A stretch of 64,000 bases of DNA from Pelomonas sp. Root1237 (GTDB taxonomy: Bacteria; Pseudomonadota; Gammaproteobacteria; Burkholderiales; Burkholderiaceae_C): positions 71,310 through 135,309 of the forward strand of contig NZ_LMDK01000020.1 in assembly GCF_001425055.1 (NCBI RefSeq), in the 5' to 3' direction. Below the pieces are notes generated by a model that was not told the origin of the DNA, did no database searches, and worked only from the letters and a program-made list of their open reading frames with translations. Positions 17,364-47,351 of the stretch are shown here, piece by piece. A program made the position numbers and the translations under genes. How positions within the stretch are numbered: position 1 is the first letter of the stretch; each line of letters begins with the position of its first letter.

Positions 17364-17387
17364 GTAGGTGCTCCTGGGCAACGAGTT

Positions 17388-17401: not shown

Positions 17402-17553
17402 GGGGCCTCGCCCATGGCAGATGTGCCATCGGGTGGGGCTCAACTCAGAAGGCCAGGGCTGCGTTGTCTCTTGTCGTCAGACCCTGGCCAGTGCCCGCAA
17501 TCTAGCGGCGGCGCTCACACCTGGAGCAAGGCGTTGCGCTTTGTTGGACTTCA

Positions 17554-29824: not shown

Positions 29825-30682
29825 ATGCGCGATCTGCAGATCGACTGGCTGAAATGCTTTGTGGCCACCGTCGATGCTGGCTCCCTGTCCAGCGCCGCGG
29901 CCGAGATCCACCGCTCGCAGTCGGCCGTCAGCATGCAGCTCAAGAAGCTGGAGGCGGCCGTCGGCCACCGCCTGCTTCGGCGCGATGCGCGCCAGTTGGA
30001 ACTGACGCATGAGGGCCAGACCCTGCTGGGCTATGCGCGACGCATACTGGACCTTCAGGCCGAGGCCCAGGCGGCGTTGCGCGAGGACGATGTCTCAGGT
30101 GTCGTGCGCCTGGGCGTACCGGATGACTACGCTCGCAGATACCTGACACCGGTCCTCAAGCGCTTTGCGCCGCGCCATGGCGGCGTTGAGATCCAGCTGG
30201 ACTGCGAGCAGTCGACCTCGCTGATCCCGCGCGTGGCGCGTGGCGATCTCGATCTGGCTCTGGTTTCGCGCGACCACGCACGGCGCGGCACCCTGCTCTT
30301 CCACGAGCCCATGGTCTGGGTCGGCTCCCCGCAGTTTGACATCTGGCGGCGCGACCCGCTGCCCATTGCAGTCTACGAGGAGGCCAGCCTGGGCCGGCGC
30401 AGCGCCATCAACGCCCTCGCCCTGCAGGGCCGGCCCTACAAGATCGTCTACAACAGCTCCAGCCTGGCAGGGCAGATCGCAGCCGTCGAGAGCGGCCTGG
30501 CCGTGGCCGTGCTGACGCAGTGCAGCGCGCCGCCGCATCTGCAACTTCTGGGCGCCGAACAGGGCCTGGGACCGCTGGAGCCGATGCAGGTAGCCGTCTA
30601 CCGCAGCAAGACGTCCAAGGGCAACAAGGCGGTGGACAGCCTGCGGCGGATGCTGATCGAGACGCTCAGGGTGTCGGGCTGA
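29825..30682 (+). CDS. LysR-family regulator divergent from the EamA exporter
   Basis: The 285-residue protein has a LysR DNA-binding domain (MRDLQIDWLKCFVATVDAGSLSSAAAEIHRSQSAVSMQLKKLE in the first 45 residues) and a shortened sensor domain starting near GVVRLGVPDDYARRYL. It sits head to head with the EamA gene and probably controls it. Its 3' end overlaps the convergent alpha-galactosidase gene by 17 bases, so the two stop codons lie inside each other's coding sequences; this is tight packing with no room for a terminator. Confidence 0.92.
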   Translation: MRDLQIDWLKCFVATVDAGSLSSAAAEIHRSQSAVSMQLKKLEAAVGHRLLRRDARQLELTHEGQTLLGYARRILDLQAEAQAALREDDVSGVVRLGVPDDYARRYLTPVLKRFAPRHGGVEIQLDCEQSTSLIPRVARGDLDLALVSRDHARRGTLLFHEPMVWVGSPQFDIWRRDPLPIAVYEEASLGRRSAINALALQGRPYKIVYNSSSLAGQIAAVESGLAVAVLTQCSAPPHLQLLGAEQGLGPLEPMQVAVYRSKTSKGNKAVDSLRRMLIETLRVSG

Positions 30683-31877
30683 CACGCAGCATCAGCACGC
30701 CGTGCGGCTTCACGCTCCCGCCGAACTCGCCCGAGACGCCGCGGGTCTTCTTGCCCGACCACAGGTCGTGGACCTCGGCCTTGATGCGCGGCGCGAGGTC
30801 CATCTGCTCCCACGTCACCTTGATGTCGACTGCCGTTTCGCCGCGGTTGAACAGCACGGCCGCACGTTCGCCACCGGCCAGCGTGCGCACCCAGACCTCC
30901 AGGTTGCCCTGGCGCCAGACGCGACGGCCCTGCCGGCCCAGCGGGTCCTGGTCAACCTTGATGACTTCGGCATTGGTCAGGATGCGGCGCGTGTCCGCAT
31001 CCATCTTCGCCATGTCGTTGCCCGCCACCAGCGGCGCGGCCAGCATGGCCCAGATCGAGAAGTGGCTCTCGTACTCCGTCGTCGTCATGCCGCCGTTGCC
31101 GACCTCGAGCATGTCAGGGTCGTTCCAGCCGTTGGGCGCGGCGTCGGCCCACAGGTCGGCATTCATGTCGATGATGTCCAGCAGGCCGTGCGACCACTCC
31201 TTCTTGCCCTTCCAGGCATCCCAGATATCGCCCGTGGTGCGCCACAGATGGCCGACGGGATGGGCCCAGCGGCCGGGCTGGCTGCCGCCCCATTCGCAGA
31301 TGGACAGCACGATGTCACGGCCCGATTCGCGCAGCGCCTTGGCCATGATGGTGTAGGCCGCTTCGGGGGTGCGCGGGCCGGTGTAGCACCAGTCGTATTT
31401 CAGCCAGTCCACGCCCCACTTCGCATACTGGCGCGCATCCTGGAACTCGTGGCCGGCGCTGCCGGGGCGGCCACCGCAGGTTGCGGCGCCGGCATCGGAA
31501 TAAAGGCCGAACTTCAGGCCCTTGGAATGAACGTAGTCGGCCAGTGCCTTGATGCCCGACGGGAAGCGCTCGGGGTCGGCCTGAATGTTGCCGTCCGCGT
31601 CGCGGCTCTTCTGCCAGCAGTCGTCGATGACGATGTAGCGGTAGCCCGCGTCTTTCATGCCGGAGGCGACCATCGCGTCGGCCTGCTGGCGGATCAGCGT
31701 CTCGCTGACGTTGCAGGCGAACTTGTTCCAGGAGTTCCAGCCCATCGGCGGCGTGGGCGCGAGATTGGGCTTGGGGGCGTCGAGCTTGAGCGTCTCGTGC
31801 GGGGCGGCCTGGGCGCCGGCAATGAAGACGCAGGTCGACAGGGCCAGCAAAGCGCGGCCGAGCCAGGTTGAAGTCAT
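30666..31877 (-). CDS. Secreted GH27 alpha-galactosidase
   Basis: The 403-residue protein has a signal peptide (MTSTWLGRALLALSTCVFIAGAQA) and the GH27 pattern: LAPTPPMGWNSWNKFACNVSE, DDCWQ, KFGLYSDAGAATCGG. The nucleophile is D162 in LKYDWCY and the acid/base D255 in NDPDML. It removes terminal alpha-1,6-galactose from galactomannan or galactoglucomannan oligosaccharides, or from raffinose-type sugars. A GGAG is eight bases before the ATG. It follows the GPH sugar permease by 20 bases on the same strand, so both share the promoter with the GTTTAGTAAAC-like operator at 33411. This places it in the inferred LacI regulon. Confidence 0.95.
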   Translation of the reverse strand: MTSTWLGRALLALSTCVFIAGAQAAPHETLKLDAPKPNLAPTPPMGWNSWNKFACNVSETLIRQQADAMVASGMKDAGYRYIVIDDCWQKSRDADGNIQADPERFPSGIKALADYVHSKGLKFGLYSDAGAATCGGRPGSAGHEFQDARQYAKWGVDWLKYDWCYTGPRTPEAAYTIMAKALRESGRDIVLSICEWGGSQPGRWAHPVGHLWRTTGDIWDAWKGKKEWSHGLLDIIDMNADLWADAAPNGWNDPDMLEVGNGGMTTTEYESHFSIWAMLAAPLVAGNDMAKMDADTRRILTNAEVIKVDQDPLGRQGRRVWRQGNLEVWVRTLAGGERAAVLFNRGETAVDIKVTWEQMDLAPRIKAEVHDLWSGKKTRGVSGEFGGSVKPHGVLMLRVSPTP

Positions 31878-31897: not shown

Positions 31898-33373
31898 TCA
31901 GACGGTGCCGCGGCGCGCTTCCAGCTCGGCGCGGATCTCGTTCATGCGCCGCTCGGTCAGGAAGTAGCGGGACACGATGTAGAGGGCGATAAGCAGCCCG
32001 AGGATGGGAATGCCCGACAGGGCGACCCGGATCATGAACAGCGCATCCTCGCCCTGCACCGGCAGCTTAGCGTTGAAGCCGGTGAACATCAGCACCCAGC
32101 CGGAGGCGCCGTTGCCCAAGGCGAGGCCGACCTTGGAGATCCAGGAGCCGCAGGCGGCGAACGAACCCTCGCGGCGCTGTCGGCTGCCGAGCTCGTCATG
32201 GTCGATGACGTCGGCCATCGCCGAGCCGTAGATCGTCCAGAACCCGGCACCGACGAAGGCCACGCCGCCGCTGGCAAACAACTGCAACCAGGGCAGCTGC
32301 GGGTTGTAGAAGAACCAGTCGCCGACGAAGGCGAGGATGCCCAGCACCAGCACCGTCATCAGCGCATTGCGCTTGCCCCAGTGCCTGGCCACCCACCCGG
32401 CGAAGGCGATGCCAACGAGGCCGCAGACCAGACCGGCGATGCCCATCATCGAGTTCCACTTGGTGGCTTCAACGACGTTGCCGGCGCAGACGTAGTAGAC
32501 GGTGGCGTAGTAGCCCAGCATGCCCACCATGGAGGTGGCCATGTTGTAGGCCATCATCGTGCCCAGCATCTGGCGGAAGGGCTTGTTCTTCAGTGTGCGG
32601 TACAGGGTGTCCTTGAAGGGCACGCGCTGCCGGGTCTGCGCCACGACCTTCTGGTAGTAGCGTTCGCGGGTCAGCAGGAAAATGGCGATGGAGACCACCA
32701 CCATGATGCCGCCCAGGATGCTGGTGTAGACCTGGGCACCCAGCAGGATGTCGGGCTTGCCCGACGCATCGTTGAAGACGGCCAGCGTCGTGAACTGGGC
32801 CGCCACGAACATCGCCAGCTCGGGGAGCTTCTGGATCGCGTTCTTCCACGACATCACACGCGTGCGCTCGTGGTAGTCGGGCGTCATCTCCGCACCCAGG
32901 CTGTTCCAGGGCATGTTGAAGCAGCTCATGACCGGCACGTACAGGCAGGTCGAGACCAGCATGAAGATGAAGTATTCGTTGTCGCTCCAGCCGCGGCCGA
33001 CGGCGAACATCAGCGGCAGGCCGATGCCGGCGAGGATGCCGCCCACCAGGATGAAGGGGCGGCGGCGCCCCCAGCGCGTGCGGGCGTTGTCGGAGAGCCA
33101 GCCGAACAGCGTGTCCGAAACGGCATCGACCGCGATCTTCAGGAAGATGACCGTGGAGATCAGCCCCGGCGCCACGCCGAGGAAGATGTTGAAGACGTGA
33201 AAGGCCAACGACTGGTAGAGCCAGTGGCCCCACATGTCCAGGAAGGAGCCCAGGCCGAAGCCGATCTTCTGCCGCGCGGGCACGCGGTCGGCCGCAAGTG
33301 TTGGCGCTGGCGGCACGGAGGCGGTCGGGCGCTGCACGGGCGGCATGGCGGCCCCTTCGGGATCGGCGATCAA
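31898..33373 (-). CDS. GPH-family sugar permease (MelB-like)
   Basis: The 491-residue protein has twelve membrane segments with the glycoside-pentoside-hexuronide signatures: KIGFGLGSFLDMWGHWLYQSL near the N terminus, SDTLFGWLSDNARTRWGRRRPF after helix two, and MADVIDHDELGSRQRREGSFAA before helix ten. It would import galactosides or manno-/gluco-oligosaccharides with sodium or protons. The start is TTG 33373 with GGAG six bases upstream; ATG 33346, preceded by AGGGG, is an alternative. It leads the operon with the GH27 gene. The operator-like sequence at 33411-33421 lies about 40 bases before the start. Confidence 0.9.
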   Translation of the reverse strand: MIADPEGAAMPPVQRPTASVPPAPTLAADRVPARQKIGFGLGSFLDMWGHWLYQSLAFHVFNIFLGVAPGLISTVIFLKIAVDAVSDTLFGWLSDNARTRWGRRRPFILVGGILAGIGLPLMFAVGRGWSDNEYFIFMLVSTCLYVPVMSCFNMPWNSLGAEMTPDYHERTRVMSWKNAIQKLPELAMFVAAQFTTLAVFNDASGKPDILLGAQVYTSILGGIMVVVSIAIFLLTRERYYQKVVAQTRQRVPFKDTLYRTLKNKPFRQMLGTMMAYNMATSMVGMLGYYATVYYVCAGNVVEATKWNSMMGIAGLVCGLVGIAFAGWVARHWGKRNALMTVLVLGILAFVGDWFFYNPQLPWLQLFASGGVAFVGAGFWTIYGSAMADVIDHDELGSRQRREGSFAACGSWISKVGLALGNGASGWVLMFTGFNAKLPVQGEDALFMIRVALSGIPILGLLIALYIVSRYFLTERRMNEIRAELEARRGTV

Positions 33374-33410
33374 GACTGTCTCCTTCGCCTGGCGCTGAGC
33401 GAGGCGGTAT

Positions 33411-33421
33411 TTTTAGTAAAC
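33411..33421. promoter_or_regulatory. Putative LacI operator before the permease-GH27 operon
   Basis: TTTTAGTAAAC differs at one base from the perfect palindrome GTTTAGTAAAC at 47296-47306. It lies about 40 bases before the permease start. Read on the minus strand, an AAAATA that could be a -10 box precedes it by five bases, so a repressor there would sit near the transcription start. Confidence 0.6.
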
Positions 33422-33429
33422 AGTCCTAT

Positions 33430-33482: not shown

Positions 33483-34529
33483 CTAGACAGCTGCGGTCTT
33501 GCGCCTGGCCTTGCGCGGCGCGGCCTCGGCTTCAGGCGCCGCGACGAAACGGGAACTCTCGCGCACGACCAGCTCCACCGGCAGCGACGCGTCATTGGGT
33601 GCGACATCGCCTTCGATGAGGGCGCGTGCGGCGACGTTGCCAAGTGCTTCCTTGTCCATCTTCACAGTGGACAGGGGCGGCTTGTTGCGGGCAGCCTCCT
33701 CGATGTCGTCGTAGCCGATGAAGCGGATGTCCTCGGGCACCCGCAGGCCACGCTCAAGGCAGACCTCGATGGCGAACATGGCCGTCGAGTCGTTGTAGGC
33801 AAAGACCGCGTCCGGGGGGGTGGGCAGGGCCAGCAGGCGGCTCATCGCATCGCGGCCGGCGTCGCCGTATTCCAGCGCCGGGTCCAGCGTGACTTCGTAG
33901 TCGGGGTCGAACAGGCGACCGGCCTCGAACAAGGCGCGGCGGAAGCCCTTGGCGCGCAGCGACGTCGAGTAATGCGCCAGCGGCCCGAAGATGGCGGCGA
34001 TGCGCTGGGAACTGCCTTCCAGCAGGTGGCGCGTCGCCAGCCAGGCGCCGAGCTGGTTGTCGTCATTGACGCAGCGCACGCCGGGGTAGAAGTGGTCCAC
34101 GAGCACCAGCGGCAGTTCGCAGCGGCGAATGGATTCCATGGCCTCGGGGTCGAAATAGCCGGCACCCAGCAGCGCCTCGGCCTCATGGCGGCGTACCTGG
34201 CCGGCCACGTCGTCACCTGCCAGCACCGACATGATGCTCAGCGGCACGCCGGCCTCGCGGCAGGCCGTCTCGGCGCCGTGCAGCACATAGGAATAGAAGG
34301 GGTTGTTGGCCAGCGAGCCGAGGCTGCGGCTGTACAGGAAGAGCATGCGGCGTGGCTTGCCGGTGCGCAGCTTGCCGACGTCATAACCCATCTGCTGGGC
34401 CACGCCGAGCACCTGGGCGCGGGTCTGCTCCGACAGGCCGGGCTGGCCCTTCAGCGCGCGCGACACCGTGCCGATGGACACGCCCGCGGCCTCGGCCAAT
34501 TCGCGAATCGTCACTCCCTTGTCGGCCAT
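33483..34529 (-). CDS. LacI-family repressor of the mannan/galactoside locus
   Basis: The 348-residue protein has the LacI helix-turn-helix at the very N terminus (VTIRELAEAAGVSIGTVSRALKG) with the hinge-type helix around VGKLRTGKPR, and a sensor domain ending in DIRFIGYDDIEEAARNKPPLSTV. I use ATG 34529, with GGAG eight bases upstream; the adjacent GTG 34532 is only five bases from it. It lies between the permease-GH27 operon and the kinase-GH1 operon. Palindromes of the type GTTTAGTAAAC, usual in form for LacI operators, occur before both of these and before the ABC operon, so this protein is the probable common repressor. The effector is unknown; a manno- or gluco-oligosaccharide is likely. 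Confidence 0.93.
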   Translation of the reverse strand: MADKGVTIRELAEAAGVSIGTVSRALKGQPGLSEQTRAQVLGVAQQMGYDVGKLRTGKPRRMLFLYSRSLGSLANNPFYSYVLHGAETACREAGVPLSIMSVLAGDDVAGQVRRHEAEALLGAGYFDPEAMESIRRCELPLVLVDHFYPGVRCVNDDNQLGAWLATRHLLEGSSQRIAAIFGPLAHYSTSLRAKGFRRALFEAGRLFDPDYEVTLDPALEYGDAGRDAMSRLLALPTPPDAVFAYNDSTAMFAIEVCLERGLRVPEDIRFIGYDDIEEAARNKPPLSTVKMDKEALGNVAARALIEGDVAPNDASLPVELVVRESSRFVAAPEAEAAPRKARRKTAAV

Positions 34530-34637
34530 CACCCGAGCTCCCGCTGTTGTTTAGCACGTCGCATCGGGCGCGATTGTGCATCGGCACCCCAGCGGCCCCG
34601 GGTACACCCTGTACCGGGGGCAAAACCTAGGCTGGAT

Positions 34638-34654
34638 ATTGTTCACTAAACAAT
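34638..34654. promoter_or_regulatory. Putative LacI operator before the kinase-GH1-halogenase operon
   Basis: ATTGTT and AACAAT form perfect arms around CACTA. Inside it, GTTCACTAAAC (34641-34651) is, on the other strand, one substitution from GTTTAGTAAAC. It overlaps a possible -35 (TTCACT) that is 17 bases from TAGAAT (34665-34670). It also lies 109 bases upstream of the divergent repressor gene. Confidence 0.65.
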
Positions 34655-34710: not shown

Positions 34711-35634
34711 ATGCTCCCCTGCCCCATCGCCGTCCTCGGCGAAGCCCTGGTCGACGAATTCCATGACGGACCCGTCGCGGGTGGCGCGCCCTTCAACGTG
34801 GCGCGCTCGCTCGCCGCCATGGGCGCGCCGGCCCTGTTCATCAGCCGCGTCGGCGCGGACGATGACAACGGCCGCCTCGTGCTCGACAGTGCGCGCCGCT
34901 ACGGCCTGGACAGCGCCGGCGTGCAGCGCGACCCGCAGCACGCCACCGGCCGCGTCAGCGTGCACGAGGACGCCGGAGGCCACCACTTCGAGATTCAAGG
35001 CGACGCCGCCTGGGACCATATCGACGCCGCGGCCGCCCGCCCTCACCTCGCTGAAACGGCGCCAGCGTGGCTCTACTTCGGCAGCCTGGCCCAACGCCAG
35101 CCCGCCTCGCGCGCGGCCCTGCGCGCCCTCGTCAAGCCTTTCACCGGCACGCGCTTCCTGGACTTGAACCTGCGGGCCAGCACTGAAACCCGACTGCTGG
35201 CCGCCGAGTCGCTGATGCTGGCCGATTGGGTCAAGGTCAACGACGAAGAACTGGCCCAACTGGCCGGCTGGTTCGATGCCGGCGCGCCCGACGACGCCGG
35301 CCGCGCCAGCGCATTGATGGCACGTTTTGCACTGCAACGCCTGGTGCTGACCTGCGGCGCCAGCGGCTGGCGCTTCTACGCGCCGGGCGGCGTACTGCTG
35401 GCGCAGGGTGCTGGCGTCACCCAGCCGCACATGGTCGACACCGTCGGCGCCGGCGATGCTTTCACCGCCCTGCTGCTGGCCGGCCTGTCGCTGGGCCGTG
35501 ACCTGCCCGCCACGCTGGCCCTGGCCAATCGCTACGCCTCCTTCATCTGTGGCGTGCGCGGCCCGCTGCCCGCCGAACCCCTTGCCCTGCAACCCTGGCG
35601 CACCGCCCTGCATGCGCTGCCGACCTCTGCCTGA
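34711..35634 (+). CDS. PfkB-family sugar kinase, probable fructokinase
   Basis: The 307-residue protein (start ATG 34711, MLPCPIAVLGEALVDEFHDG) carries both PfkB signatures: GGAPFNVARSLAAMG near residue 25 and DTVGAGDAFTALLL near 245, the latter with the catalytic Asp. The opening GEALVDEF pattern is that of fructokinases. In this locus it would phosphorylate fructose formed from mannose by the AGE-family isomerase encoded at 52.5 kb, giving fructose 6-phosphate. It is the first gene of a plus-strand operon with GH1 (13-base gap) and two halogenase-like genes. The frame extends upstream to 34576 but this part lacks family similarity and contains the operator. Confidence 0.9.
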   Translation: MLPCPIAVLGEALVDEFHDGPVAGGAPFNVARSLAAMGAPALFISRVGADDDNGRLVLDSARRYGLDSAGVQRDPQHATGRVSVHEDAGGHHFEIQGDAAWDHIDAAAARPHLAETAPAWLYFGSLAQRQPASRAALRALVKPFTGTRFLDLNLRASTETRLLAAESLMLADWVKVNDEELAQLAGWFDAGAPDDAGRASALMARFALQRLVLTCGASGWRFYAPGGVLLAQGAGVTQPHMVDTVGAGDAFTALLLAGLSLGRDLPATLALANRYASFICGVRGPLPAEPLALQPWRTALHALPTSA

Positions 35635-35647
35635 ACGACTGCCCGAC

Positions 35648-37033
35648 ATGGACCTGACCCCGCCTCCCACCTCCCTGGCCGACCTCGTCGCGCCGCCCGC
35701 CGGCTCGGCCATGCGCCGCCCCGGCTTCATCTTCGGCGCCGGCACCTCGTCGTACCAGATCGAAGGCGCCGCGCATGACGACGGCCGCCTCGAATCCATC
35801 TGGGACCGCTTCTGCGCGACGCCCGGCAAGGTGCTGCGCGGCGAGAACGGCGATGTGGCGTGCGACCACTACCACCGCTTTGAAGAAGACCTGGACATCC
35901 TGCAGCGCCTGGGTGTGGACGCCTACCGCTTCTCCATCGCCTGGCCGCGCGTGATGGACGAGGCCGGCCGCCCGAATGCGAAGGGCATCGACTTCTACAA
36001 GCGCCTGCTCGACGGCCTGGCCAAGCGTGGCATCCGCGCCTTCGTCACGCTGTATCACTGGGACCTGCCCCAGCACCTGGAAGACCGCGGCGGCTGGCTG
36101 AACCGCGAAACGGCCTACCGCTTTGCCGACTACGCCGAGCTGATGAGCCGCGAACTCGGTGGCGGCCGCGTGGCGGCCTGGACGACGCACAACGAGCCCT
36201 GGTGCTCAGCCTATCTTGGCTATGGCGACGGGCACCACGCGCCCGGCCTCAAGTCCAACCGCTGGGCCGCCCAGGCCATGCACCATCTGCTGCTGGGGCA
36301 CGGCCTGGCGCTGCCCATCCTGCGCGCCAACGACCCGACGGCCTTGCACGGCATCGTCGCCAACTGCGCGCCGGGCTATGCCGACACTGACACAGCCGAA
36401 GACCGCGATGCCGCTTCGCTGTTCGAGACCTACCAGAACCGCTGGGTGCTGGACCCGCTGCTCAAGGGCGAATACCCGGCCGACCTGTGGCGGCTGTGGA
36501 AGGGCTGTGAGCCCCTGGTGCTGCCCGGCGACATGGACCTCATCAAGCAGCCCATCGACTACCTGGGCATCAACTTCTACAGCCGCGCCGTGCTGCGCTC
36601 CAAGGGCCCCGACACCATCGACTGGGTGCGCCACCCCGAGGTCGAGCGCACGACGATGGACTGGGAGGTCTACCCGCAAGGCCTGCAGGACCTGTTCGAA
36701 GCCTTCAAGCGCGACTACGCCAATCTGCCGCCCCTCTACATCACCGAAAACGGCATGTCGAGCGACGACCAGGTCAGCGCCGGCGAGATCGACGACCAGC
36801 AACGCCAGGCCTACATCAAGCAGCATTTCGCGGCATGCTCACGTGCCATGGACAACGGCGTGGACGTGCGCGGCTATTTCATCTGGTCGCTGCTGGACAA
36901 CTTCGAATGGGCCTTCGGCTACGAGCGCCGCTTCGGCCTCGTGCACGTGGACTTCGAGACGCAGCAGCGCACGCTCAAGCGCAGTGCGCTGGCCTATGCG
37001 GACTTCCTGAAGGAGCGCGCCGCGGCGCGTTGA
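35648..37033 (+). CDS. GH1 beta-glycosidase (beta-glucosidase/beta-mannosidase type)
   Basis: The 461-residue protein has no export signal, so it is cytoplasmic. GH1 features are FGAGTSSYQIEGA near the N terminus, RFSIAWPR, acid/base E183 in THNEPW, nucleophile E367 in YITENGM, and the C-terminal WSLLDNFEWAFGYERRFGLVHVD. Bacterial enzymes of this type hydrolyse cello-oligosaccharides, and many accept beta-mannosides. It could release the glucose units of glucomannan fragments. The start ATG 35648 is followed by a 25-residue proline-rich leader before the conserved GFIFGAGTS; ATG at MRRPGF is an alternative. The stop is two bases before the next ATG. Confidence 0.94.
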   Translation: MDLTPPPTSLADLVAPPAGSAMRRPGFIFGAGTSSYQIEGAAHDDGRLESIWDRFCATPGKVLRGENGDVACDHYHRFEEDLDILQRLGVDAYRFSIAWPRVMDEAGRPNAKGIDFYKRLLDGLAKRGIRAFVTLYHWDLPQHLEDRGGWLNRETAYRFADYAELMSRELGGGRVAAWTTHNEPWCSAYLGYGDGHHAPGLKSNRWAAQAMHHLLLGHGLALPILRANDPTALHGIVANCAPGYADTDTAEDRDAASLFETYQNRWVLDPLLKGEYPADLWRLWKGCEPLVLPGDMDLIKQPIDYLGINFYSRAVLRSKGPDTIDWVRHPEVERTTMDWEVYPQGLQDLFEAFKRDYANLPPLYITENGMSSDDQVSAGEIDDQQRQAYIKQHFAACSRAMDNGVDVRGYFIWSLLDNFEWAFGYERRFGLVHVDFETQQRTLKRSALAYADFLKERAAAR

Positions 37034-37035
37034 GC

Positions 37036-38526
37036 ATGGGCATCCGGCGCGTCGTCATCCTCGGCGGCGGCTCCGCCGGCTGGATGTCGGCCGCCGCGCT
37101 GACGACAGGGTTGCGCGGCGTCGCCGTTGAGCTGGTCGAGTCCGAGGAGATCGGCATCATCGGCGTCGGCGAAGCCACTTTTCCGTCGATCCGCAGCTTC
37201 AACGACATCCTCGGCATTGACGAGGCTGAGTTTCTCGCCGCCACGCGCGGCAGCTACAAGCTCGGCATCCAGTTCTGCGACTGGAAGCAGCGCGGCGAGC
37301 ACTATTTCCACACCTTCGGTGACTTCGGTCCACTGGACGGCCCGATGGCGTTGTGGGGCCAACTGCGCCGCCTGCAGACAGGCCCCGGCACGCCGCTGGG
37401 CGAGTTCTGCCTGCCGACGGTGATGGCGCACCAAGGCCGATTCTGCAGGCCTGCAGAAGGCGAGGACAGCCTGGCCTCGCGCTACACCTACGCCTACCAC
37501 TTCGACGCGACGCTCTACGCCGCCTTCCTGCGCCGCCTGGCCGAAGGTCGCGGCGCGAGGCGCACTGAGGGGCGCGTCGTCGGCGTGGAGCGCCACGAGG
37601 ACGGCCGTGTGCGCGCGCTGCACCTGGCCGACGGGCGCGAGGTCGAGGGCGATCTCTTCATCGACTGCTCGGGCCTGGCGTCCCTGCTGATCGGCCAGAC
37701 GCTCGAGCAGCGTTTCATTGACTACGGCCACTGGCTGCCAGTGGACCGCGCCTGGGCCGTGCCCACCGAGCGCGCACCGGGCGATCTCGCGCCCTTCACG
37801 CGCTCGACGGCGCTGGAGGCCGGCTGGGCCTGGCGCATCCCGCTGCATGACCGCACCGGCAACGGCCATGTGTTCAGCAGCCGCTTCATCGACGAGGGAC
37901 GGGCGCGCGAACAGCTGCTGGCCCAGCTCGACGCGCCGATGCTGGCCGAGCCGCGGCTGCTGCGCTTTCGCACCGGCCACCGCGAGCGGTTCTGGGTCAA
38001 GAACGTCGTCGCCATCGGCCTGGCCGCCGGCTTCCTGGAGCCGCTGGAGTCCACCGCCATCTACATGGTGCACAACGCGCTGGGCCGGCTCATCCCGCTG
38101 CTCGGCGAGGCCGATCACACGCAGGCCGCGGTCGGCTTCAACGTGCAGCAGCTGCGCCAGTACCAGCGCATCCGCGACTTCATCATCCTGCACTACGCCC
38201 TGAGCGAGCGCCGCGACAGCGAGTTCTGGCGCACGCTGACGAGCATGGAGCTGCCCGAGTCGCTGGACTACAAGTTGCATGCCTGGCGCGAGACCGGCAC
38301 CCTGCATGCCTACGACAACGAGGCCTTCGACACGGCGAGCTGGCTGGCCATCCACGCCGGCATGGGCGACTGGCCGCGGCGCCGCAGCCCTTGGCCGGAC
38401 GAGATGCCGGCTGAGTTGGCAGCCCGCTATCTCACTGAGCGCCATCAGGCCATTGCCGCGCTGGCCGCCGGCATGCCTGACCACGACAGCTTTCTGCGTG
38501 CACGCTTGAGCGGTGCTGCGGGATAG
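37036..38526 (+). CDS. Flavin-dependent halogenase-family protein (tryptophan halogenase type), first of a tandem pair
   Basis: The 496-residue protein has the whole halogenase frame: the FAD motif GGGSAGW (residues 10-16), GEATFPSI (45-52), the active-site Lys at K75 (in SYKLGIQF), the WxWxIP motif as W264-A-W-R-I-P269, and the LEPLEST segment with E338. It therefore keeps the residues that in PrnA/RebH-type enzymes generate hypohalous acid and direct it to substrate. It is co-transcribed with a sugar kinase and a beta-glycosidase (two-base gap from GH1), not with a secondary-metabolite cluster or a flavin reductase. Similar proteins are known beside TonB receptors in Xanthomonas and Caulobacter. 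The substrate is unknown; some relatives halogenate indole in vitro. Confidence 0.88.
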   Translation: MGIRRVVILGGGSAGWMSAAALTTGLRGVAVELVESEEIGIIGVGEATFPSIRSFNDILGIDEAEFLAATRGSYKLGIQFCDWKQRGEHYFHTFGDFGPLDGPMALWGQLRRLQTGPGTPLGEFCLPTVMAHQGRFCRPAEGEDSLASRYTYAYHFDATLYAAFLRRLAEGRGARRTEGRVVGVERHEDGRVRALHLADGREVEGDLFIDCSGLASLLIGQTLEQRFIDYGHWLPVDRAWAVPTERAPGDLAPFTRSTALEAGWAWRIPLHDRTGNGHVFSSRFIDEGRAREQLLAQLDAPMLAEPRLLRFRTGHRERFWVKNVVAIGLAAGFLEPLESTAIYMVHNALGRLIPLLGEADHTQAAVGFNVQQLRQYQRIRDFIILHYALSERRDSEFWRTLTSMELPESLDYKLHAWRETGTLHAYDNEAFDTASWLAIHAGMGDWPRRRSPWPDEMPAELAARYLTERHQAIAALAAGMPDHDSFLRARLSGAAG

Positions 38527-38567
38527 CGCCCATGCTCAGAGCCGAAGCCCCTACCTAGACTGGCGCG

Positions 38568-40100
38568 ATGGAAAACCTGAACAAGCCGCTGCGGCGGGTC
38601 GTGATCGTCGGCGGTGGCGCCGCCGGCTGGATGTCGGCCGCCGCATTGAGCGCGGTGCTCAAGCCCCCGTATGAGATCCGCCTCGTCGAGTCCGACGAGA
38701 TCGGCATCATCGGCGTGGGCGAAGCGACCATCCCGCCGATCCGCATGTTCAACGGCCTGGCCAAGATCGACGAGGCGGAGTTCCTCAAAGCCACGCAAGG
38801 CACGTTCAAGCTCGGCATCGAATTCGTCAACTGGGGCCGCCAGGGCGAGCGCTATTTCCACGGCTTCGGCGGCGTCGGCCGCGAGGCGCTGTGGCCGGTG
38901 GACTTCTCGCAATACTGGCTGCGCCTGCGCGCGCTGGGCCGCGCGCTGCCGCTGGACGCCTACGTCATCTCCAACATGGCGGCCAAGGCCAACCGCTTCA
39001 TGCTGCCGCGGCCGGACATGCAGAACTCGCCGATGGCCGCACTCGGCTATGCCTATCACTTCGACGCGTCGCTGTACGCGAAGCACCTGCGTGCCCTGAG
39101 CGAGCAGCGCGGCGTGCGCCGCACCGAAGGCAAGGTCGTGCGCGTGCTGCTCAATGAAGAACCGGGGCCAGCCGAAGGCCATGTGCGCGCCGTGCAGATG
39201 CAAAGCGGCGAACTGGTGGAGGGCGACCTCTTCCTCGACTGCTCCGGCTTTGCCAGCCTGCTGATCGAGAAGGCCCTCGGCACCGGTTTCGAGGACTGGA
39301 GCCACTGGCTGCCCTGCGACCGCGCCGTGGCGGTGCCCAGCGAGAGCACGAGCCCGCTGCTGCCCTATACGCGTTCGACCGCGCACCGGGCCGGCTGGCA
39401 ATGGCGCATTCCGTTGCAGCACCGCGTCGGCAACGGCCATGTCTATTCCAGCAGCCATGTCAGCGACGACGAGGCGGCCGGCGTGCTGCTGAAGAATCTC
39501 GACGGCCAGCCGCTCGCCGACCCGCGGATCATCAAGTTCCGCACTGGCATGCGTGAGGAGGCGTGGCGGCGCAATGTGGTTGCCATCGGCATGTCGGCCG
39601 GCTTCGTCGAGCCGCTGGAGTCGACGGCCCTGCACCTGATCCAGATGGGTGTGGCCAAGCTCATCGAGGCCTTCCCCCACAGTGGCTTCGACGCCCTGGA
39701 GATCGCCGAGTACAACCGCCAGAGCCGCGAGCGCTACGAATACGTGCGCGACTTCATCGTGCTGCACTATCACCTGAACCAGCGCGACGACAGCGAGTTC
39801 TGGAAGGCCTGCGCGGCCATGGCCATTCCCGGGGCCCTGCGCTGGCGCATGGCGCTGTATGCCTCCAGCGGCCGCCTGGCCAATGTCGACGGCGACCTGT
39901 TCCGCGAGCCGAGTTGGCTGGAGGTCATGGAAGGCCAGAACCTGCGCCCCAAGGGCTGGCTGGCGCTCGCCGAGCTGCAAGGTGTCGAGGAAACGGCCGC
40001 CTACTTCAAGGGCGTGTCCGACACCATCGCGCAATGCGTGGCCGTGATGCCCGATCACGCGGAGTTCGTGCGGCGCTACTGCCCAGCGATGCCAGTCTGA
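38568..40100 (+). CDS. Flavin-dependent halogenase-family protein, second of a tandem pair
   Basis: The 510-residue paralogue of the preceding gene shares its order of motifs: VVIVGGGAAGW (FAD, residues 11-21), GEATIPPI, active-site Lys K81 in TFKLGIEF, WQWRIP at 277-282, and VEPLEST with E351. The two proteins diverge mainly in the substrate-facing insert (about residues 90-150), which suggests different substrates or a heteromeric pair. The gap of 41 bases to the first copy is compatible with one transcript. As with its partner, no flavin reductase gene is adjacent. Expression under the same LacI operator as the kinase and GH1 is the inference. Confidence 0.88.
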   Translation: MENLNKPLRRVVIVGGGAAGWMSAAALSAVLKPPYEIRLVESDEIGIIGVGEATIPPIRMFNGLAKIDEAEFLKATQGTFKLGIEFVNWGRQGERYFHGFGGVGREALWPVDFSQYWLRLRALGRALPLDAYVISNMAAKANRFMLPRPDMQNSPMAALGYAYHFDASLYAKHLRALSEQRGVRRTEGKVVRVLLNEEPGPAEGHVRAVQMQSGELVEGDLFLDCSGFASLLIEKALGTGFEDWSHWLPCDRAVAVPSESTSPLLPYTRSTAHRAGWQWRIPLQHRVGNGHVYSSSHVSDDEAAGVLLKNLDGQPLADPRIIKFRTGMREEAWRRNVVAIGMSAGFVEPLESTALHLIQMGVAKLIEAFPHSGFDALEIAEYNRQSRERYEYVRDFIVLHYHLNQRDDSEFWKACAAMAIPGALRWRMALYASSGRLANVDGDLFREPSWLEVMEGQNLRPKGWLALAELQGVEETAAYFKGVSDTIAQCVAVMPDHAEFVRRYCPAMPV

Positions 40101-40400
40101 TCACGCGAAACGGCTGAGCGAGGTGGAACTGCTCTCCGTCTCGCCCGACGCGATCGACGCCCACCCGCTGATCCGCGAGTACTTCGCGGCGCAGCTGAAG
40201 CGGTAGCAGCCCGAGGCGTTCCAGGCGGCCCACTCGCGGCTGTTCGACTATCTGTGCGAGAACACGCCGCACCGCCCGGACGGCCTCGACGGACTGGCCC
40301 CGCTCTACGAAGCCGCCACCCACGGCTGCCGCGCCGGACGACAGCAAGAGGCGTTTAGGTCGGAGCGACGGGCCTTGCGTCGAGGACCTGGTCCGCAAGT
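40101..40400 (+). pseudogene. Degenerate C-terminal fragment of an NTPase/TPR-type protein
   Basis: In one frame from about 40102, the translation reads AKRLSEVELLSV...IDAHPLIREYFAAQLKR, a stop at 40204, then QPEAFQAAHSRLFDYLCENTP...LAPLYEAATHGCRAGRQQEAF, after which similarity is lost. HPLIREYF followed by PLYEAATHGCRAGR is the tail module of large AAA/NACHT-like ATPases with TPR repeats that also occur in bacterial defence-type proteins. Only about 90 residues remain and they contain an in-frame stop, so it is a relic. It begins immediately after the second halogenase gene and marks an old insertion or deletion. Confidence 0.7.
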
Positions 40401-40495
40401 TCCGGAAGTGACGGCCGAACGGCGGGTTGCCTGAACCCGCCATGTCGGCCTACGCTTTCGCATCCAGCCAACCGCTTCACTTCGGATCGAAAGCC

Positions 40496-41191
40496 ATGAC
40501 CTCACTGCCGTCCCGCCGCCGATTCACCGCTGCGCTGCTGCTTGGCAGCCTGGCAGGTGGCTGCGCTGCCGCCGGCGAGTCGGTGAGCATCCCGCCGCCG
40601 GCCCAGGATCTGGCACCCACGGCAACCGGCCTGCAGACCGCGGTGTTCGCCGGTGGTTGCTTCTGGGGCGTACAGGGTGTGTTCCAGCATGTGCAGGGCG
40701 TACAGCAGGCCGTCTCCGGCTACGCGGGTGGCACGGCGAGCACGGCGAACTACAAGCTGGTCACCAGCGGCCGCACCGGCCATGCAGAGGCGGTCGAGGT
40801 GACGTTCGACCCATCGCAGGTCAGCTACGGCGCCTTGCTGCAGGTCTTCTTCTCCGTGGCACACAACCCGACGCAGCTGAACCACCAGGGACCGGATATC
40901 GGCCGCCAATACCGCTCGGCCCTGTTTCCCGCCGACGCGGCGCAGCGCGAGACGGCCCAGGCCTACATCGCGCAATTGGACGCGACAGGGCTCTACGGCA
41001 AGCCCATCGTGACCAAGGTGGAGAACAGGGGCAACTTCTATCCCGCCGAGAAATTCCATCAGGACTACTTGGTCGACAACCCGCGAGACCCCTACATCGT
41101 GTTCCACGACCTGCCCAAGATCGCGGCGCTGAAGCGGCTTTTCGGCGAACGGTTCAGAAGCGAGCCCATGCTGGTGAAGCAAGCGCGTTGA
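40496..41191 (+). CDS. msrA: Peptide methionine sulfoxide reductase MsrA, exported
   Basis: The 231-residue product has the MsrA active-site motif AGGCFWGVQ, with the catalytic Cys, at about residue 55, then SGYAGG, SGRTGHAEAVEVTFDP, HNPTQLNHQGPDIGRQYRSA and NFYPAEKFHQDY. It reduces methionine-S-sulfoxide in proteins. I start at ATG 40496: a twin-Arg-like signal (PSRRRFTAALLLG) is followed by a Cys (AGGC) that could be lipidated, so the enzyme probably acts in the periplasm. The second catalytic Cys at the C terminus, seen in many MsrA proteins, is absent. Position next to halogenase-like genes is suggestive, since hypohalous acids oxidise methionine, but may be coincidence. Confidence 0.93.
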   Translation: MTSLPSRRRFTAALLLGSLAGGCAAAGESVSIPPPAQDLAPTATGLQTAVFAGGCFWGVQGVFQHVQGVQQAVSGYAGGTASTANYKLVTSGRTGHAEAVEVTFDPSQVSYGALLQVFFSVAHNPTQLNHQGPDIGRQYRSALFPADAAQRETAQAYIAQLDATGLYGKPIVTKVENRGNFYPAEKFHQDYLVDNPRDPYIVFHDLPKIAALKRLFGERFRSEPMLVKQAR

Positions 41192-41216
41192 TCCTGGCCC
41201 AGTGGCCGACGCGCAT

Positions 41217-41247
41217 AAAAAAAGCACCGCGGAGCCAACCGCGGTGC
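41217..41247 (-). terminator. Rho-independent terminator of the TonB receptor transcript
   Basis: On the minus strand, GCACCGCGG and CCGCGGTGC pair around a six-base loop and are followed by seven T residues. A further GC hairpin without a T-run lies between it and the receptor stop (41265-41286). The convergent msrA gene has no T-run of its own here. Confidence 0.92.
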
Positions 41248-41296
41248 CGGGTCTTGCGAGTGGCGGGCGGGCCGGGCGGCCCGCCCTTCATCAAGC

Positions 41297-44200
41297 TCAG
41301 AAGCTGTACTGCATGCTGACGCGATAGCCGCGGCCCGACGTGAAGTAGTTGTGGCCGATCATGCCGATGTGCTGCTGCATGATCTGCTTGTACGTCTTGT
41401 TCGTCAGGTTGGTGGCATCGACACCCAGGGACAGATCGTTGCCGATCTTCAGGTGCAGACCTGCGTCGACCTGTCCATAGCCGTCAGCCCAAAGCGGCAG
41501 GCCCACGGGCAGGTTGTGCTGACCAAAGTTGGCGCTCGCCGGGTTGGTGTCCAGCGCATTGGTCTGGTTGGGGCCGGTGTTGTCGGAGTTCAGCGCCACG
41601 CCGTAGAGGTATCTGCCGCGGTAGTTGTAGGCAATGCGGGCAGAGACCGGACCACGGTCGTAGAGCAGCGCGATGTTGAAGGTGTTCTTCGACAGGTTGT
41701 CCAGCGGCATATCGCCGAAGGAACGGCCATCGGTGTCACAGCCGTTGATGTACAGGTTCAGGTTGTCCTGGCCTGCGCCGGGCGAGCAGTAGCCCGTGTA
41801 CACCGCGTTGTAGCGCTTCACCTTGCTGTCCACGTAGGTGTAGTTCGCCTGCAGGCCAATGCCCTGCAGCAGCGAGGGCAGGCCCTCGAAGTACTGCTGG
41901 TAGGCCACTTCGAAGCCCCGCGCATAACCCTTGGCGCCGTTGACCGGGCCGTTCAGCACGAAGTTGACCGGCTTGCCGTTGGCGTCGTTGACCGTGCGGT
42001 TGAAAGCCTGGTTGACGATGATGTCCTTGAGGTTCTTGTTGAAGACGGCGGCAGTCACGGAGCCGTTCTTCGCGAAGTACCACTCGGCCGTCACGTCTTC
42101 CTGGTCGGAGCGGATGGGCTTGAGCTCGGGGTTGCCGCTGGCCGTGCCGGTCAGGTTGATCTTCTTGACGTTGGGCGGCACGCTTTGCGCATCGACCTCG
42201 ATGGTTTGCGACATCGACAGGAAACCCTGCATCTGGCTGAACTGCGGGCGCGCCAGGGCCTTGGACGCGGCAAAGCGGAACTGCAGCGCGCCGTCCGCCG
42301 TGGCCTTCCACTTCAGGTTCAGGCTGGGCAGGTAGTCCGTGAAGCTCTGGTTGAAGTTCTGCTCCTTGGCGAACGGCGTCAGCTGCGGCACGGCCAGGCC
42401 GACCGCACCGGGGGGCGCGGCCTGCGTGGTCAGGATGGTGTAGCCGTCGGCCTGGTTCTTGGTGTGGACCGCGCGCAGGCCGACGTTGCCGTCGATGGGC
42501 AGGCCCACCTCATCGAAGGAGAAGCGCAGCTGTGCATACCCCGCCGTGGTGGTCTCGGCCTGGGTGTTGCGACCGGCCGGGTCGGTGCCGAAGGAAGTAG
42601 GAGCCCACTTGCCACCGCCCTGGATGCTGTTGGCCTGCTGCGGGCAGCCCGCACCATCCCAGCCCGGCTTGAAGTTCGTGCACTCGTTCAGGTAGAGCTG
42701 GTGCAGCTTGTTGTAGCTGTTGGGCCAGTCGAAGGCCACCGAAGCCGCCGGGAAATACAGCGACGGGAGGTTGGCCTTGCCGCCGCCCATGAAGTCGGCG
42801 TAGTTGTTCTTGTAGGTGGGGATATCCGGCGCCTTGGTGATGTAGGCCAGGTCGCCGATGTTCCAGCCCACCTGCCAGGCGTGGGTGATGGTCGCCCAGT
42901 TGTAGCTCGGGTTGCTGTTGATGGTCTCGGCGTCGCGCTTGGCGATGCGCACGCCCACGCGCAGGTCGTTGAGGATCTTGTTGTCGTGGAAGACCCAGCG
43001 CGCATCACCCTTCCAGGCTTTTTGCGTGCCCTTGCCCTTGTCCAGGTGGTCCATCATCATCGCCCAGTAGTACTTGCTGGGGTCGTTGAGGACGGCCATG
43101 TCACTGGCGTCGAACACCAGGCGCGGCATCGAGCCGGTGTAGTCCACGGTCTCCTTGGGCAGGGCTACAGCGGTGCCGACCGTGGAGTCGAAGTTGTTGG
43201 TCTTGGAGCGGATGTACTGGAAGTCAGACGTCAGCGTCAGCTGCTCGTTGACCTTGCCGGAAATCTTCCAGGCCAGTTCATCGGTCTGCGAGTTGCGCTT
43301 GGAGTAGCGCGTCTGGTTCTCGACCTCGATGCCGGTGTAGTTGCCGTTGGCGTCCTTCTTGCCGGTCAGCACGCCCTTGGTCATCACGCCGTTGGCGTCG
43401 TAGGTGCCGTCCAGCACCTCGACGTTGTAGGGGTCGACCTGGGCGCTGACGTTGTTCTCGTTCCAGTTGAACTTGAACTTGGAACGGAAGAAGGTCAGCG
43501 AGGACTCGACGTCGTCCTTCTTCCATTGCAGCGCGCCGTAGATGCCGTCGCGCGTGCGGTCGTAGAACTGCTGCTTCCACGACATGTCGCGGGAGAACCA
43601 GGTCGGGCTGGTCGGCGTGGCCTTGTAGAACGGGTCCAGCACCAGGCCGTCCGTGCGGTTGGAACTGAGCGAATGCGCCACGTCGATCAGCGCGCCGAAC
43701 TTGCCCGCGTCGGTGTTCCAGGTGTTGGACAGCAGGCCCGAGACGCTGGGCTTGTTCTTCTTGGCCAGGCTGTTGCGCGAGACGTCGAGCGAAATCGAGC
43801 CCTTGAAGCCGGGAAAGTCGAAGGGCAGGGCCGTGCGCAGGTTCACCAGGCCGCCGATGGCGCCCTCGATCTGCTCGGCCGAGGGGTTCTTGTAGACGTC
43901 CACGCCGGCCATCAGCTCGGGCGGCACGTCCTCGAAGCCCAGCGTGCGGCCCTGGTTGGCGCTGAAGGTCTCGCGGCCGTTCAGCGTTGAGCTGACATAG
44001 GTCAGGCCGCGGATGTTGACGCCCGACCCTTCGACCGAGAAGTGCACCGGGTCGTTGGACGACGACACCCGCGACATCGTGGCCCCGACGATGCGCTGCA
44101 GCACCTCGGACACCGAGCGGTCGGGCAGCTTGCCGATCTCGTCGGCGACGACCGAGTCGACGATCTCGTCTGATTCCTGTTTGAGTTTCTGCGCCGACGC

Positions 44201-44377
44201 AAGCGCGGCGCGGCGCCCAGAAACAATGACGGTCTCCAGGGCCTGAGGCGCCTTGTCAGCCGCGGGTGCTGCCGCCGGAGCTGGCGCGGGCGTGTTCTGC
44301 GCCAGCGCCGGTGTGGCTGCCCAAACCAGCGCCTGTACGGCCGCCAGGGACAGCGTTGTCCTCTTGAAATGTCTCAT
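41297..44377 (-). CDS. TonB-dependent outer-membrane receptor of the mannan locus
   Basis: The 1026-residue protein has a signal peptide (MRHFKRTTLSLAAVQALVWAATPALA), a Pro/Ala linker, a TonB-box-like ETVIVSG, and a plug with DEIGKLPDRSVSEVLQRIVGATMSR, GVNIRGL and VDVYKNPSAEQIEGAIGGLVNL, then a large barrel ending MQYSF. The plug pattern is that of the Xanthomonas/Caulobacter carbohydrate receptors. A GAGG is directly before the ATG. It lies 158 bases after the GH2 beta-mannosidase, in the same direction, with a LacI-type palindrome in the gap (44461-44474), and probably imports manno- or gluco-manno-oligosaccharides released by the secreted GH5 enzymes. Confidence 0.95.
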   Translation of the reverse strand: MRHFKRTTLSLAAVQALVWAATPALAQNTPAPAPAAAPAADKAPQALETVIVSGRRAALASAQKLKQESDEIVDSVVADEIGKLPDRSVSEVLQRIVGATMSRVSSSNDPVHFSVEGSGVNIRGLTYVSSTLNGRETFSANQGRTLGFEDVPPELMAGVDVYKNPSAEQIEGAIGGLVNLRTALPFDFPGFKGSISLDVSRNSLAKKNKPSVSGLLSNTWNTDAGKFGALIDVAHSLSSNRTDGLVLDPFYKATPTSPTWFSRDMSWKQQFYDRTRDGIYGALQWKKDDVESSLTFFRSKFKFNWNENNVSAQVDPYNVEVLDGTYDANGVMTKGVLTGKKDANGNYTGIEVENQTRYSKRNSQTDELAWKISGKVNEQLTLTSDFQYIRSKTNNFDSTVGTAVALPKETVDYTGSMPRLVFDASDMAVLNDPSKYYWAMMMDHLDKGKGTQKAWKGDARWVFHDNKILNDLRVGVRIAKRDAETINSNPSYNWATITHAWQVGWNIGDLAYITKAPDIPTYKNNYADFMGGGKANLPSLYFPAASVAFDWPNSYNKLHQLYLNECTNFKPGWDGAGCPQQANSIQGGGKWAPTSFGTDPAGRNTQAETTTAGYAQLRFSFDEVGLPIDGNVGLRAVHTKNQADGYTILTTQAAPPGAVGLAVPQLTPFAKEQNFNQSFTDYLPSLNLKWKATADGALQFRFAASKALARPQFSQMQGFLSMSQTIEVDAQSVPPNVKKINLTGTASGNPELKPIRSDQEDVTAEWYFAKNGSVTAAVFNKNLKDIIVNQAFNRTVNDANGKPVNFVLNGPVNGAKGYARGFEVAYQQYFEGLPSLLQGIGLQANYTYVDSKVKRYNAVYTGYCSPGAGQDNLNLYINGCDTDGRSFGDMPLDNLSKNTFNIALLYDRGPVSARIAYNYRGRYLYGVALNSDNTGPNQTNALDTNPASANFGQHNLPVGLPLWADGYGQVDAGLHLKIGNDLSLGVDATNLTNKTYKQIMQQHIGMIGHNYFTSGRGYRVSMQYSF

Positions 44378-47034: not shown

Positions 47035-47211
47035 GTGTCGGAGTCGTTGCGGTTGCGTTGCACACCAGCCCGCGGCGGGAGACCCCGAGCCGAACGGCAC
47101 GCTTCGCCGATCAGCCTCTGCGCCGCGCCTCAACGCGGCCGCGGCTTGTCTCCTGCTTCGCCACAAGCAAAGCTAAACATTGTTCTGTTGCGCATTCTGT
47201 TTCTCTACGAC

Positions 47212-47221: not shown

Positions 47222-47295
47222 CTCGGGGATATTCCTGATGTTTTCTGGAAGAGACAGTCAACACAGCCGCTCAACTGCCGCACATAATCCGGTCC

Positions 47296-47306
47296 GTTTA
47301 GTAAAC
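47296..47306. promoter_or_regulatory. Putative LacI operator before the ABC/esterase/isomerase/GH5 operon
   Basis: GTTTAGTAAAC is a perfect 11-bp palindrome, seven bases after a CATAAT that could be the -10 box and 45 bases before the start of the solute-binding protein. A repressor bound here would block transcription at its start. Related sites lie at 33411-33421 and 34641-34651. Confidence 0.68.
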
Positions 47307-47351
47307 AACAACGAGACAAGGTGGCCAAGCCGGCCACGCGCTTCCCCCGCA

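Follow-up and report, generated by a model that had tools for sequence, protein, structure and literature searches.

We analyzed a stretch of 64,000 nucleotides from Pelomonas sp. Root1237 (contig NZ_LMDK01000020.1, positions 71,310 to 135,309; G000:C20:71310-135309 in our numbering; host genome, 6.43 Mb), which we call the window and whose positions are used throughout. In it, two adjacent genes, here named FDH1 and FDH2, encode predicted flavin-dependent halogenases and stand in a sugar utilization locus together with a TonB-dependent receptor.

37036..38526, plus strand: FDH1, predicted flavin-dependent halogenase of the BrvH/Xcc4156 type (496 amino acids; PF04820, 541.5 bits; K75, E338, WxWxIP)
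38568..40100, plus strand: FDH2, predicted flavin-dependent halogenase of the BrvH/Xcc4156 type (510 amino acids; PF04820, 597.7 bits; K81, E351)

The two proteins were 47% identical to each other, and they covered 457 (FDH1) and 453 (FDH2) of the 458 positions of the Pfam Trp_halogenase model. Both carried an FAD-binding motif of the GxGxxG type (GGGSAGW at residue 10 of FDH1 and GGGAAGW at residue 15 of FDH2), the WxWxIP motif (WAWRIP at 264 and WQWRIP at 277), and the catalytic lysine and glutamate (K75 and E338 in FDH1, K81 and E351 in FDH2), with each glutamate lying within the residues EPLEST. An earlier reading of the DNA (the original prediction) had listed these motifs in two paralogues, and all of them were found at the residues that it gave; its region began at position 34711, which is the start of a PfkB kinase gene and not of a halogenase, but both halogenase genes were present in it. 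No signal-peptide-like start was seen on either protein when judged by eye. Across 126 related genes, the lysine was retained in 123 of 124, the glutamate in all 126, and the WxWxI residues in 125 to 126 of 126; since the catalytic residues are nearly universal, FDH1 and FDH2 do not look decayed. A structure model of FDH2 (pLDDT, 90.5), a step that had been proposed with the original prediction, kept the halogenase fold and matched Xcc4156 (6y1w) best, with a TM score of 0.94 over the whole length, compared with about 0.87 to 0.90 for PrnA, RebH, PyrH, and Thal, free-tryptophan halogenases that share the fold and the catalytic residues. The sequence comparisons agreed with this: the best solved match of FDH2 was PDB entry 9luq, a tryptophan halogenase of Pseudoalteromonas sp. 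L11 (517.7 bits), and Xcc4156 (505 bits) and BrvH (6frl; 452 bits) scored far above PyrH (273 bits), so that PrnA/RebH-type enzymes, at about 237 to 273 bits versus 452 to 518 bits for these three, are much more distant. The score for 5uao, which we take to be the MibH structure, was 215 bits. For FDH1, the best solved relative was BrvH (419 bits), and Xcc4156 scored 399 bits versus 285 bits for PyrH. Judged by their sequences, FDH1 and FDH2 are thus complete halogenases and new members of the group of BrvH (Brevundimonas) and Xcc4156 (Xanthomonas campestris), which have the same motifs and are among the closest solved relatives of the pair in sequence and fold. According to the text available, a second halogenase gene, 42.7% identical, stands beside BrvH as well.

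The genes and candidate sites around the pair are as follows.

30666..31877, minus strand: GH27 (glycoside hydrolase family 27) alpha-galactosidase (Melibiase_2, 251 bits)
31898..33373, minus strand: GPH-type sugar:cation symporter (MFS_2, 203.9 bits; gph TIGR00792, 183.5 bits, under its cutoff)
33410..33422: LacI-type operator candidate TTTTTAGTAAACA, between the symporter and LacI genes (pattern search)
33483..34532, minus strand: LacI-family regulator (Pfam LacI and Peripla_BP_3)
34640..34652: LacI-type operator candidate TGTTCACTAAACA, before kinase-GH1-FDH1-FDH2 (found with both patterns)
34711..35634, plus strand: PfkB-family sugar kinase (PfkB, 118.8 bits; start codon uncertain)
35645..37033, plus strand: GH1 beta-glycosidase (Glyco_hydro_1, 494 bits), ending 2 bp ahead of FDH1
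40499..41191, plus strand: MsrA methionine sulfoxide reductase (PMSR, 192 bits)
41297..44377, minus strand: TonB-dependent receptor of the Xanth-Caul type (TIGR01782, 566 bits; curated cutoff, 310)
44536..47166, minus strand: GH2 beta-mannosidase-like enzyme (Glyco_hydro_2_N2, 181 bits; Mannosidase_ig, 21.2 bits, below cutoff), upstream of the receptor gene on the same strand
47238..48584, plus strand: ABC sugar-binding protein (SBP_bac_1, 129 bits), in divergent orientation to GH2; judged by eye, the gene probably starts near 47352
47295..47307: LacI-type operator candidate CGTTTAGTAAACA, between the GH2(-receptor) operon and the ABC operon (found with both patterns)

The plus-strand genes follow one another in the order PfkB kinase, GH1, FDH1, FDH2, and MsrA; the LacI, symporter, and GH27 genes point away from the kinase-halogenase genes, and the receptor and GH2 genes converge on them from the opposite side. 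Halogenase genes have been reported in sugar loci of Xanthomonas and Caulobacter. The joint presence of a TIGR01782 receptor, GH1, GH2, and GH27 enzymes, a GPH-type symporter, and a LacI regulator matches the CUT loci of these genera, where a receptor, carbohydrate enzymes, an inner-membrane transporter, and a regulator stand together (PMC1790865); the word halogenase is absent from the main text of that paper, whereas the present locus includes a halogenase pair. The MsrA gene (40499-41191) had no match among the open reading frames (ORFs) called in the remaining halogenase loci, genus-side or named, and appeared to be a private insertion beside the halogenases. Two further TonB receptors of the window, at 14778-17429 and, of another type, at 24097-26823, have no halogenase nearby.

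A 13-base operator candidate was derived by comparing half-sites. The pattern TGTTTASTAAACA, with up to 2 mismatches, occurred 3 times in the window versus 0.02 times expected, and TGTTYASTRAACA, with up to 1 mismatch, had 5 occurrences genome-wide, of which 3 lay in the window, versus 1 for the reversed control pattern; similar sites were found at matching places in related loci. An exact palindrome was also tried as the operator and was rejected, as the window yielded, at 85% symmetry, no more than a single weak 14-base site besides GC-rich ones. The hemicellulose-type operon with a LacI-type operator that the original prediction had described is consistent with the GH1, GH2, GH27, and PfkB genes and with the three candidate sites. 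Given these shared LacI-type candidate sites, the receptor and the halogenases are probably under one regulator. The PF01613 flavin reductase family, the only reductase family searched, was not found near the pair, its sole copy in the genome lying on contig C1, and the scanned neighbors were sugar genes, MsrA, and the receptor, with no biosynthetic genes among them; both absences had been pointed out before. Within this scope, the flavin reductase and biosynthetic partner genes of PrnA/RebH-type enzymes were not found at this locus. Halogenases of the PrnA/RebH type serve secondary metabolism (natural products).

The 126 related halogenase genes came from 91 stretches or loci, comprising the host genome and 80 chosen stretches of up to 20 kb from relatives. 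The genus search gave 200 matches in 19 genomes, and because mostly high-scoring matches among those listed were taken, divergent halogenases are undersampled. ORFs were called by a GC-position rule, or by length in GC-poor loci, with some starts too long; several names of gene clusters were first given by eye, and part of them were checked by Pfam.

In this sample, the constant partner of the halogenases was a TonB-dependent receptor and not one glycan class. A TIGR01782-like receptor (profile score above 150 bits) lay within 6 kb of 100 of the 126 halogenase genes (101 with weaker receptors allowed) and near 77 of the 94 genes that were flanked by 6 kb or more in each direction. The gap between halogenase and receptor was at most 400 bp in 46 cases, 43 of them on the same strand, and the receptor was upstream in all 43. 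The linkage persisted through changes of strand and gene order among relatives. A receptor was held in 76 of the 91 loci, including 15 of maltodextrin type, 11 of mannoside type, 9 of c18 type (some with GH43), and 8 with GH16; the remaining receptor-bearing loci included some that had GH1 or SapC/Cupin_8 genes, and 13 were left without a class. The search for conserved co-occurrence that accompanied the original prediction as a proposal therefore found the receptor across several glycan classes. Within the host genome, 9 of 13 halogenase genes had a TIGR01782 receptor within 6 kb versus about 5% expected, and random placement, which would have counted against the original prediction, was not what we saw. 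Left out of these 13 were four weak matches (E of 1e-10 or weaker) and two genes at contig ends (C13 and C14). One gene that was included, on C8, has only 4.2 kb on one side, and because some of the genes form pairs at one site, the 13 cannot be counted as independent.

More distant loci gave a comparable picture. Among 80 named loci, which were the best of at least 594 pattern matches, 67 of 94 halogenase genes were near a TIGR01782-like receptor, or 61 of 88 when the 5 loci that repeat genus stretches were left out; in two of the named loci (L216 and L218), the halogenase was missed by ORF calling. A link to TonB receptors in Xanthomonas and Caulobacter had been mentioned in the original prediction, and we saw it in Caulobacter (L168 and L177) and in Xanthomonas (L190, with an Oar-like receptor) and also in Sphingomonas (e.g., L178). 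A protein of about 1,000 residues was encoded directly upstream of the halogenase in Xanthomonas (L190 and L224), Pseudoxanthomonas (L191), and Rhodanobacter (L197 and L199), and the two that were scanned (L190 and L197) were Oar-like TonB receptors with a carboxypeptidase-regulatory domain. In 80 genomes from family and class samples, a halogenase and a TIGR01782 receptor occurred together in 6, a halogenase alone in 2, a receptor alone in 1, and neither in 71 (Fisher P of 6e-7); this profile counted strong matches (halogenase, E of 1e-30 or above 300 bits; receptor, E of 1e-80) and dropped weaker ones in G003, G005, G011, G013, G017, G023, and G024. Across the 19 genus genomes, the numbers of halogenase and receptor matches were correlated (rho of 0.83; partial on genome size, 0.70).

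The main new evidence is that the halogenases went with the transporters and not with the glycan enzymes. Compared with the locus L067 (genome G032), the window was 98% identical in LacI, 96% in GH27, 92% in PfkB, and 97% in both GH1 and GH2, but only 56% in the receptor, 47% and 52% in the halogenases, and 85% in the symporter. Compared with L057 (genome G040), identities were 93% for the symporter, 91% for the receptor, and 93% for FDH2, versus 86% for LacI, 88% for GH1, and 83% for GH2. At the DNA level, identity to L067 in 250-base bins delimited the exchanged block.

37034..44250: exchanged block FDH1-FDH2-MsrA-receptor

Where it could be aligned to L067, the block was mostly 65 to 77% identical (one 83-base piece, 83%; receptor plug, 79 to 80%), whereas its flanks were 92 to 98% identical over GH1 and 90 to 96% beyond 44.25 kb, which places the mosaic breakpoints at about 37.0 kb (the end of GH1) and 44.25 kb (close to where the receptor gene starts). 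A second, separate drop fell in the symporter at about 31.75 to 33.25 kb, with 82 to 88% identity to L067 and 92 to 96% to L057. In pairwise identities among 9 orthologous mannoside loci, those with all six genes out of 13 listed, the halogenases correlated with the receptor at an r of 0.95 (partial, 0.96; permutation P of 0.0004) and with the symporter at 0.81, while the values for GH1, GH2, and LacI were 0.11, -0.03, and -0.02, respectively. The halogenase-receptor association was also seen in other types of locus: the partial r values were 0.92 and 0.87 in 8 LacI-receptor-EFG loci, where the neighboring LacI gave 0.02 against the receptor, 0.51 in 12 loci of maltodextrin type, and 0.47 in 8 loci of c18 type. 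The script labels in this test are looser than the contents of the loci, with a GH16 gene in 2 of the 8 "GH16" loci and GH43 in 2 of the 8 "arabinan" loci, and 2 and 1 listed loci, respectively, were dropped for missing genes.

From these observations, we consider it likely that the pair belongs to an uptake module made up of the TonB receptor and the inner-membrane symporter and not to sugar catabolism or to the breakdown of aromatics. An aromatic freed from the glycan would predict halogenases that track the glycan enzymes, and no such tracking was seen; an accessory role in the uptake module is the most economical reading. As to what the enzymes might do there, the Xcc4156 structure paper, in the text available, describes the natural substrates of both BrvH and Xcc4156 as unknown. 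In the available text on these two enzymes, the nearest studied relatives, neither accepts free tryptophan, bromide is preferred, and a peptide is suggested as the substrate of each, in the manner of MibH; the main texts of the BrvH and Xcc4156 papers do not contain the word TonB. MibH (NAI-107), which in the available text acts only on tryptophan inside a peptide, is the precedent for the mechanism that we propose, although it is distant from FDH2 in sequence. FDH1 and FDH2 look cytoplasmic, and their relatives reject free tryptophan, have an open site, and have been assigned a peptide as their proposed substrate, so the receptor polypeptide before export would be the likeliest substrate. On the arrival of manno-oligosaccharides, the local LacI regulator would induce the halogenases together with the receptor. 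A flavin reductase whose gene lies outside the locus would supply these cytoplasmic enzymes with FADH2, and most likely they would brominate or otherwise oxidize indole side chains on the receptor, or on a peptide that partners it, before export, which would tune the receptor; each type of receptor would be paired with a halogenase of its own. Intact enzymes, receptor linkage across locus classes, and exchange jointly with the receptor were observed, whereas the receptor chain as the substrate and halogenation as the reaction are inferred. We put this whole mechanism forward tentatively, as the best explanation at hand but one that we would not yet bet on.

Several results weigh against it. 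TIGR01782-like receptors were missing within 6 kb of 26 of the 126 halogenase genes; among these 26, a different type of receptor adjoins the genes of L076 and L120, and that of L079 has one a gene away. By hand count, 14 of the 20 TIGR01782 receptors of the host genome had no halogenase within 6 kb, so there is no general need for one unless the enzymes act in trans. FDH1 was absent from L057 and L108, which keep FDH2, and FDH1 is thus dispensable. The r value of 0.95 mainly reflects the contrast between two locus types: it fell to 0.73 (10 pairs) inside the window type and to -0.04 (6 pairs) inside the L067 type, and for lack of covariation in the latter we gave less weight to the proposed mechanism and more to mere linkage. 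Halogenases of c18-type loci followed the c18 neighbor (0.62) as well as they did the receptor (0.58). As halogenase and receptor genes are neighbors, physical linkage explains part of the covariation. The receptors themselves gave no clear pointer to a target: no tryptophan was invariant in 84 aligned receptors, and the best halogenase-linked column, W438 (46 of 68 linked versus 4 of 16 unlinked receptors), was picked from many columns without correction. Tryptophan content was 1.68% in linked and 1.55% in unlinked receptors (P of 0.37), and linked and unlinked receptors were intermixed in the receptor tree. Additionally, the contents of Trp, Tyr, Phe, Met, Cys, and His did not differ between the two sets at a P of <0.05, and a comparison of receptors with and without FDH1 yielded no convincing column. 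A conserved receptor tryptophan was therefore dropped as a direct pointer to the target.

Other explanations have to be weighed against modification of the receptor. The substrate of the halogenases could instead be a small indole or phenol with a role in uptake, for example as a cytoplasmic signal or as a halogenated ligand that is exported and recaptured by the receptor. Joint exchange with the receptor and the symporter fits such a ligand-specific role equally well, and in vitro BrvH and Xcc4156 do act on free indole and its derivatives; however, the indole activity of BrvH was so low that its authors, in the text available, doubted that indole is the natural substrate, and no biosynthetic family was found among the nameable recurrent neighbor clusters (many neighbors are unannotated). 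We regard this explanation as rather unlikely. Cosegregation could also reflect nothing but physical linkage, with the halogenases and the receptor hitchhiking in one recombination block. The genes are adjacent, a single block swap accounts for the contrast between the window and L067, and there was no finer covariation inside the L067 type. Against this, GH1 abuts FDH1 and GH2 abuts the receptor, and these equally adjacent genes were left behind, while the symporter, which is set apart by LacI, the kinase, and GH1, was carried along; the persistence of the linkage through rearrangement and the covariation in other locus types also argue for something more, which makes linkage alone unlikely in our view. 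The original prediction had also raised a change to another flavin chemistry. Such a change within a retained halogenase fold, for instance to an enzyme that hydroxylates side chains of proteins or peptides, would suit the predicted hydroxylases (Cupin_8 and DUF6445) found in some of these loci. It seems improbable given the nearly complete retention of the lysine, glutamate, and WxWxI residues and the bromination of indole by BrvH, which, in the text available, has the same motifs.

Two explanations fared worse. The original prediction had proposed a plant aromatic, set free along with the glycan, as the compound that the halogenases modify. The locus is one for the use of plant-type mannosides (GH1, GH2, and GH27), and two relatives in the genus are named as root isolates (Root405 and Root1217), but loci for other classes of glycan have the same enzyme group next to their receptors, and halogenase types did not follow the glycan enzymes, with r values of -0.03 to 0.11 for GH1, GH2, and LacI versus 0.95 for the receptor and 0.81 for the symporter. 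No aromatic-degradation family was seen among the nameable recurrent clusters, again with many neighbors unannotated, and we now consider the proposal very unlikely. The least credible explanation of all, and to us hardly plausible, is a defensive role during feeding, in which hypohalous acid or halogenated products of the enzymes would be directed at competitors or phages. Such a role could be suggested by MsrA, an enzyme for the repair of oxidized methionine, which adjoins FDH2, and by the halogenases that phage records also contain. MsrA was rejected as a conserved repair partner of a hypohalous acid maker because it had no match in the called ORFs of other loci, and a phage link, with halogenases as receptor maskers, was likewise rejected, since 18 of the 20 phage records listed, out of 66, were only 26 to 32% identical; the lack of a signal-peptide-like start on FDH1 and FDH2 also speaks against defense. 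In a table of viral contigs, the best two halogenase matches were 49% and 43% identical and the other 78 listed were 28 to 34% identical. Two phage-labeled, unannotated fecal contigs (MT837902.1 and MT835646.1) carry halogenases 49 to 50% identical to FDH2 and are probably bacterial DNA. Transcripts of phage and Colwellia halogenases are covered in the available text of PMC11337851.

The receptor-matched halogenase module is what is new here, the BrvH/Xcc4156 enzyme group and the CUT-type locus being known, and no report of such a module was found in the open-license literature, the only part searched. With this evidence, the uptake receptor becomes the place to look for the substrate of BrvH-type enzymes, in preference to natural products or plant aromatics, and the matched receptor-halogenase types are ready-made natural swap pairs. 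Should the receptor be modified, this would in our judgment be a new kind of bacterial protein modification, with relevance to bromination biocatalysis as well. A wider proposal is that TonB receptors of glycan-scavenging Proteobacteria are halogenated (bromo- or chloro-Trp) by matched cytoplasmic halogenases, alone or together with JmjC-type and DUF6445 oxygenases, as a maturation system that coevolves with receptor specificity; we find this doubtful as it stands. A set of oxidizing tailoring enzymes around the receptors would fit with the other oxygenase-like enzymes, Cupin_8 and DUF6445, in receptor loci, some of which also contain SapC. DUF6445 proteins of receptor-halogenase loci keep an HxD...H...R motif, and a model of one, with a pLDDT of only 70.6, gave weak fold matches largely to Fe/2OG (iron/2-oxoglutarate) dioxygenases (best E of 2e-4), which suggests that DUF6445 may be an Fe/2OG oxygenase and offers a lead to the function of this family. 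The Pfam-scanned copy (PF20043) is at L125:8085-8786 on the minus strand, and by similarity the family also occurs in L162, L164, L170, L194, and L219.

Other observations were made in the loci of relatives. In c18-type loci, a lipoprotein-like protein of about 460 to 630 residues as called is encoded beside the receptor gene (L107:8292-9767, minus strand; also L010, L068, L099, L101, L104, L105, L111, and L112); the two copies scanned had no Pfam match, and the protein may bind glycans at the cell surface. A divergent halogenase lies immediately upstream of the window (L014:7253-8722); its neighbors are two-component-like and ABC-like genes, and its surroundings up to 6 kb hold no receptor. 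L070 and L129 are arranged alike, as are L130 and L131, which have a receptor within 6 kb. In a Sphingomonas, one transposon insertion in a gene annotated as a tryptophan halogenase was among those listed as altering colony morphology in the available text of PMC11340318, a possible envelope phenotype. Finally, longer halogenases of about 740 residues when trimmed, with roughly 230 extra residues at the C terminus, were encoded at L009:10734-12992 (plus strand) and in L081, L086, L087, L088, and L089.

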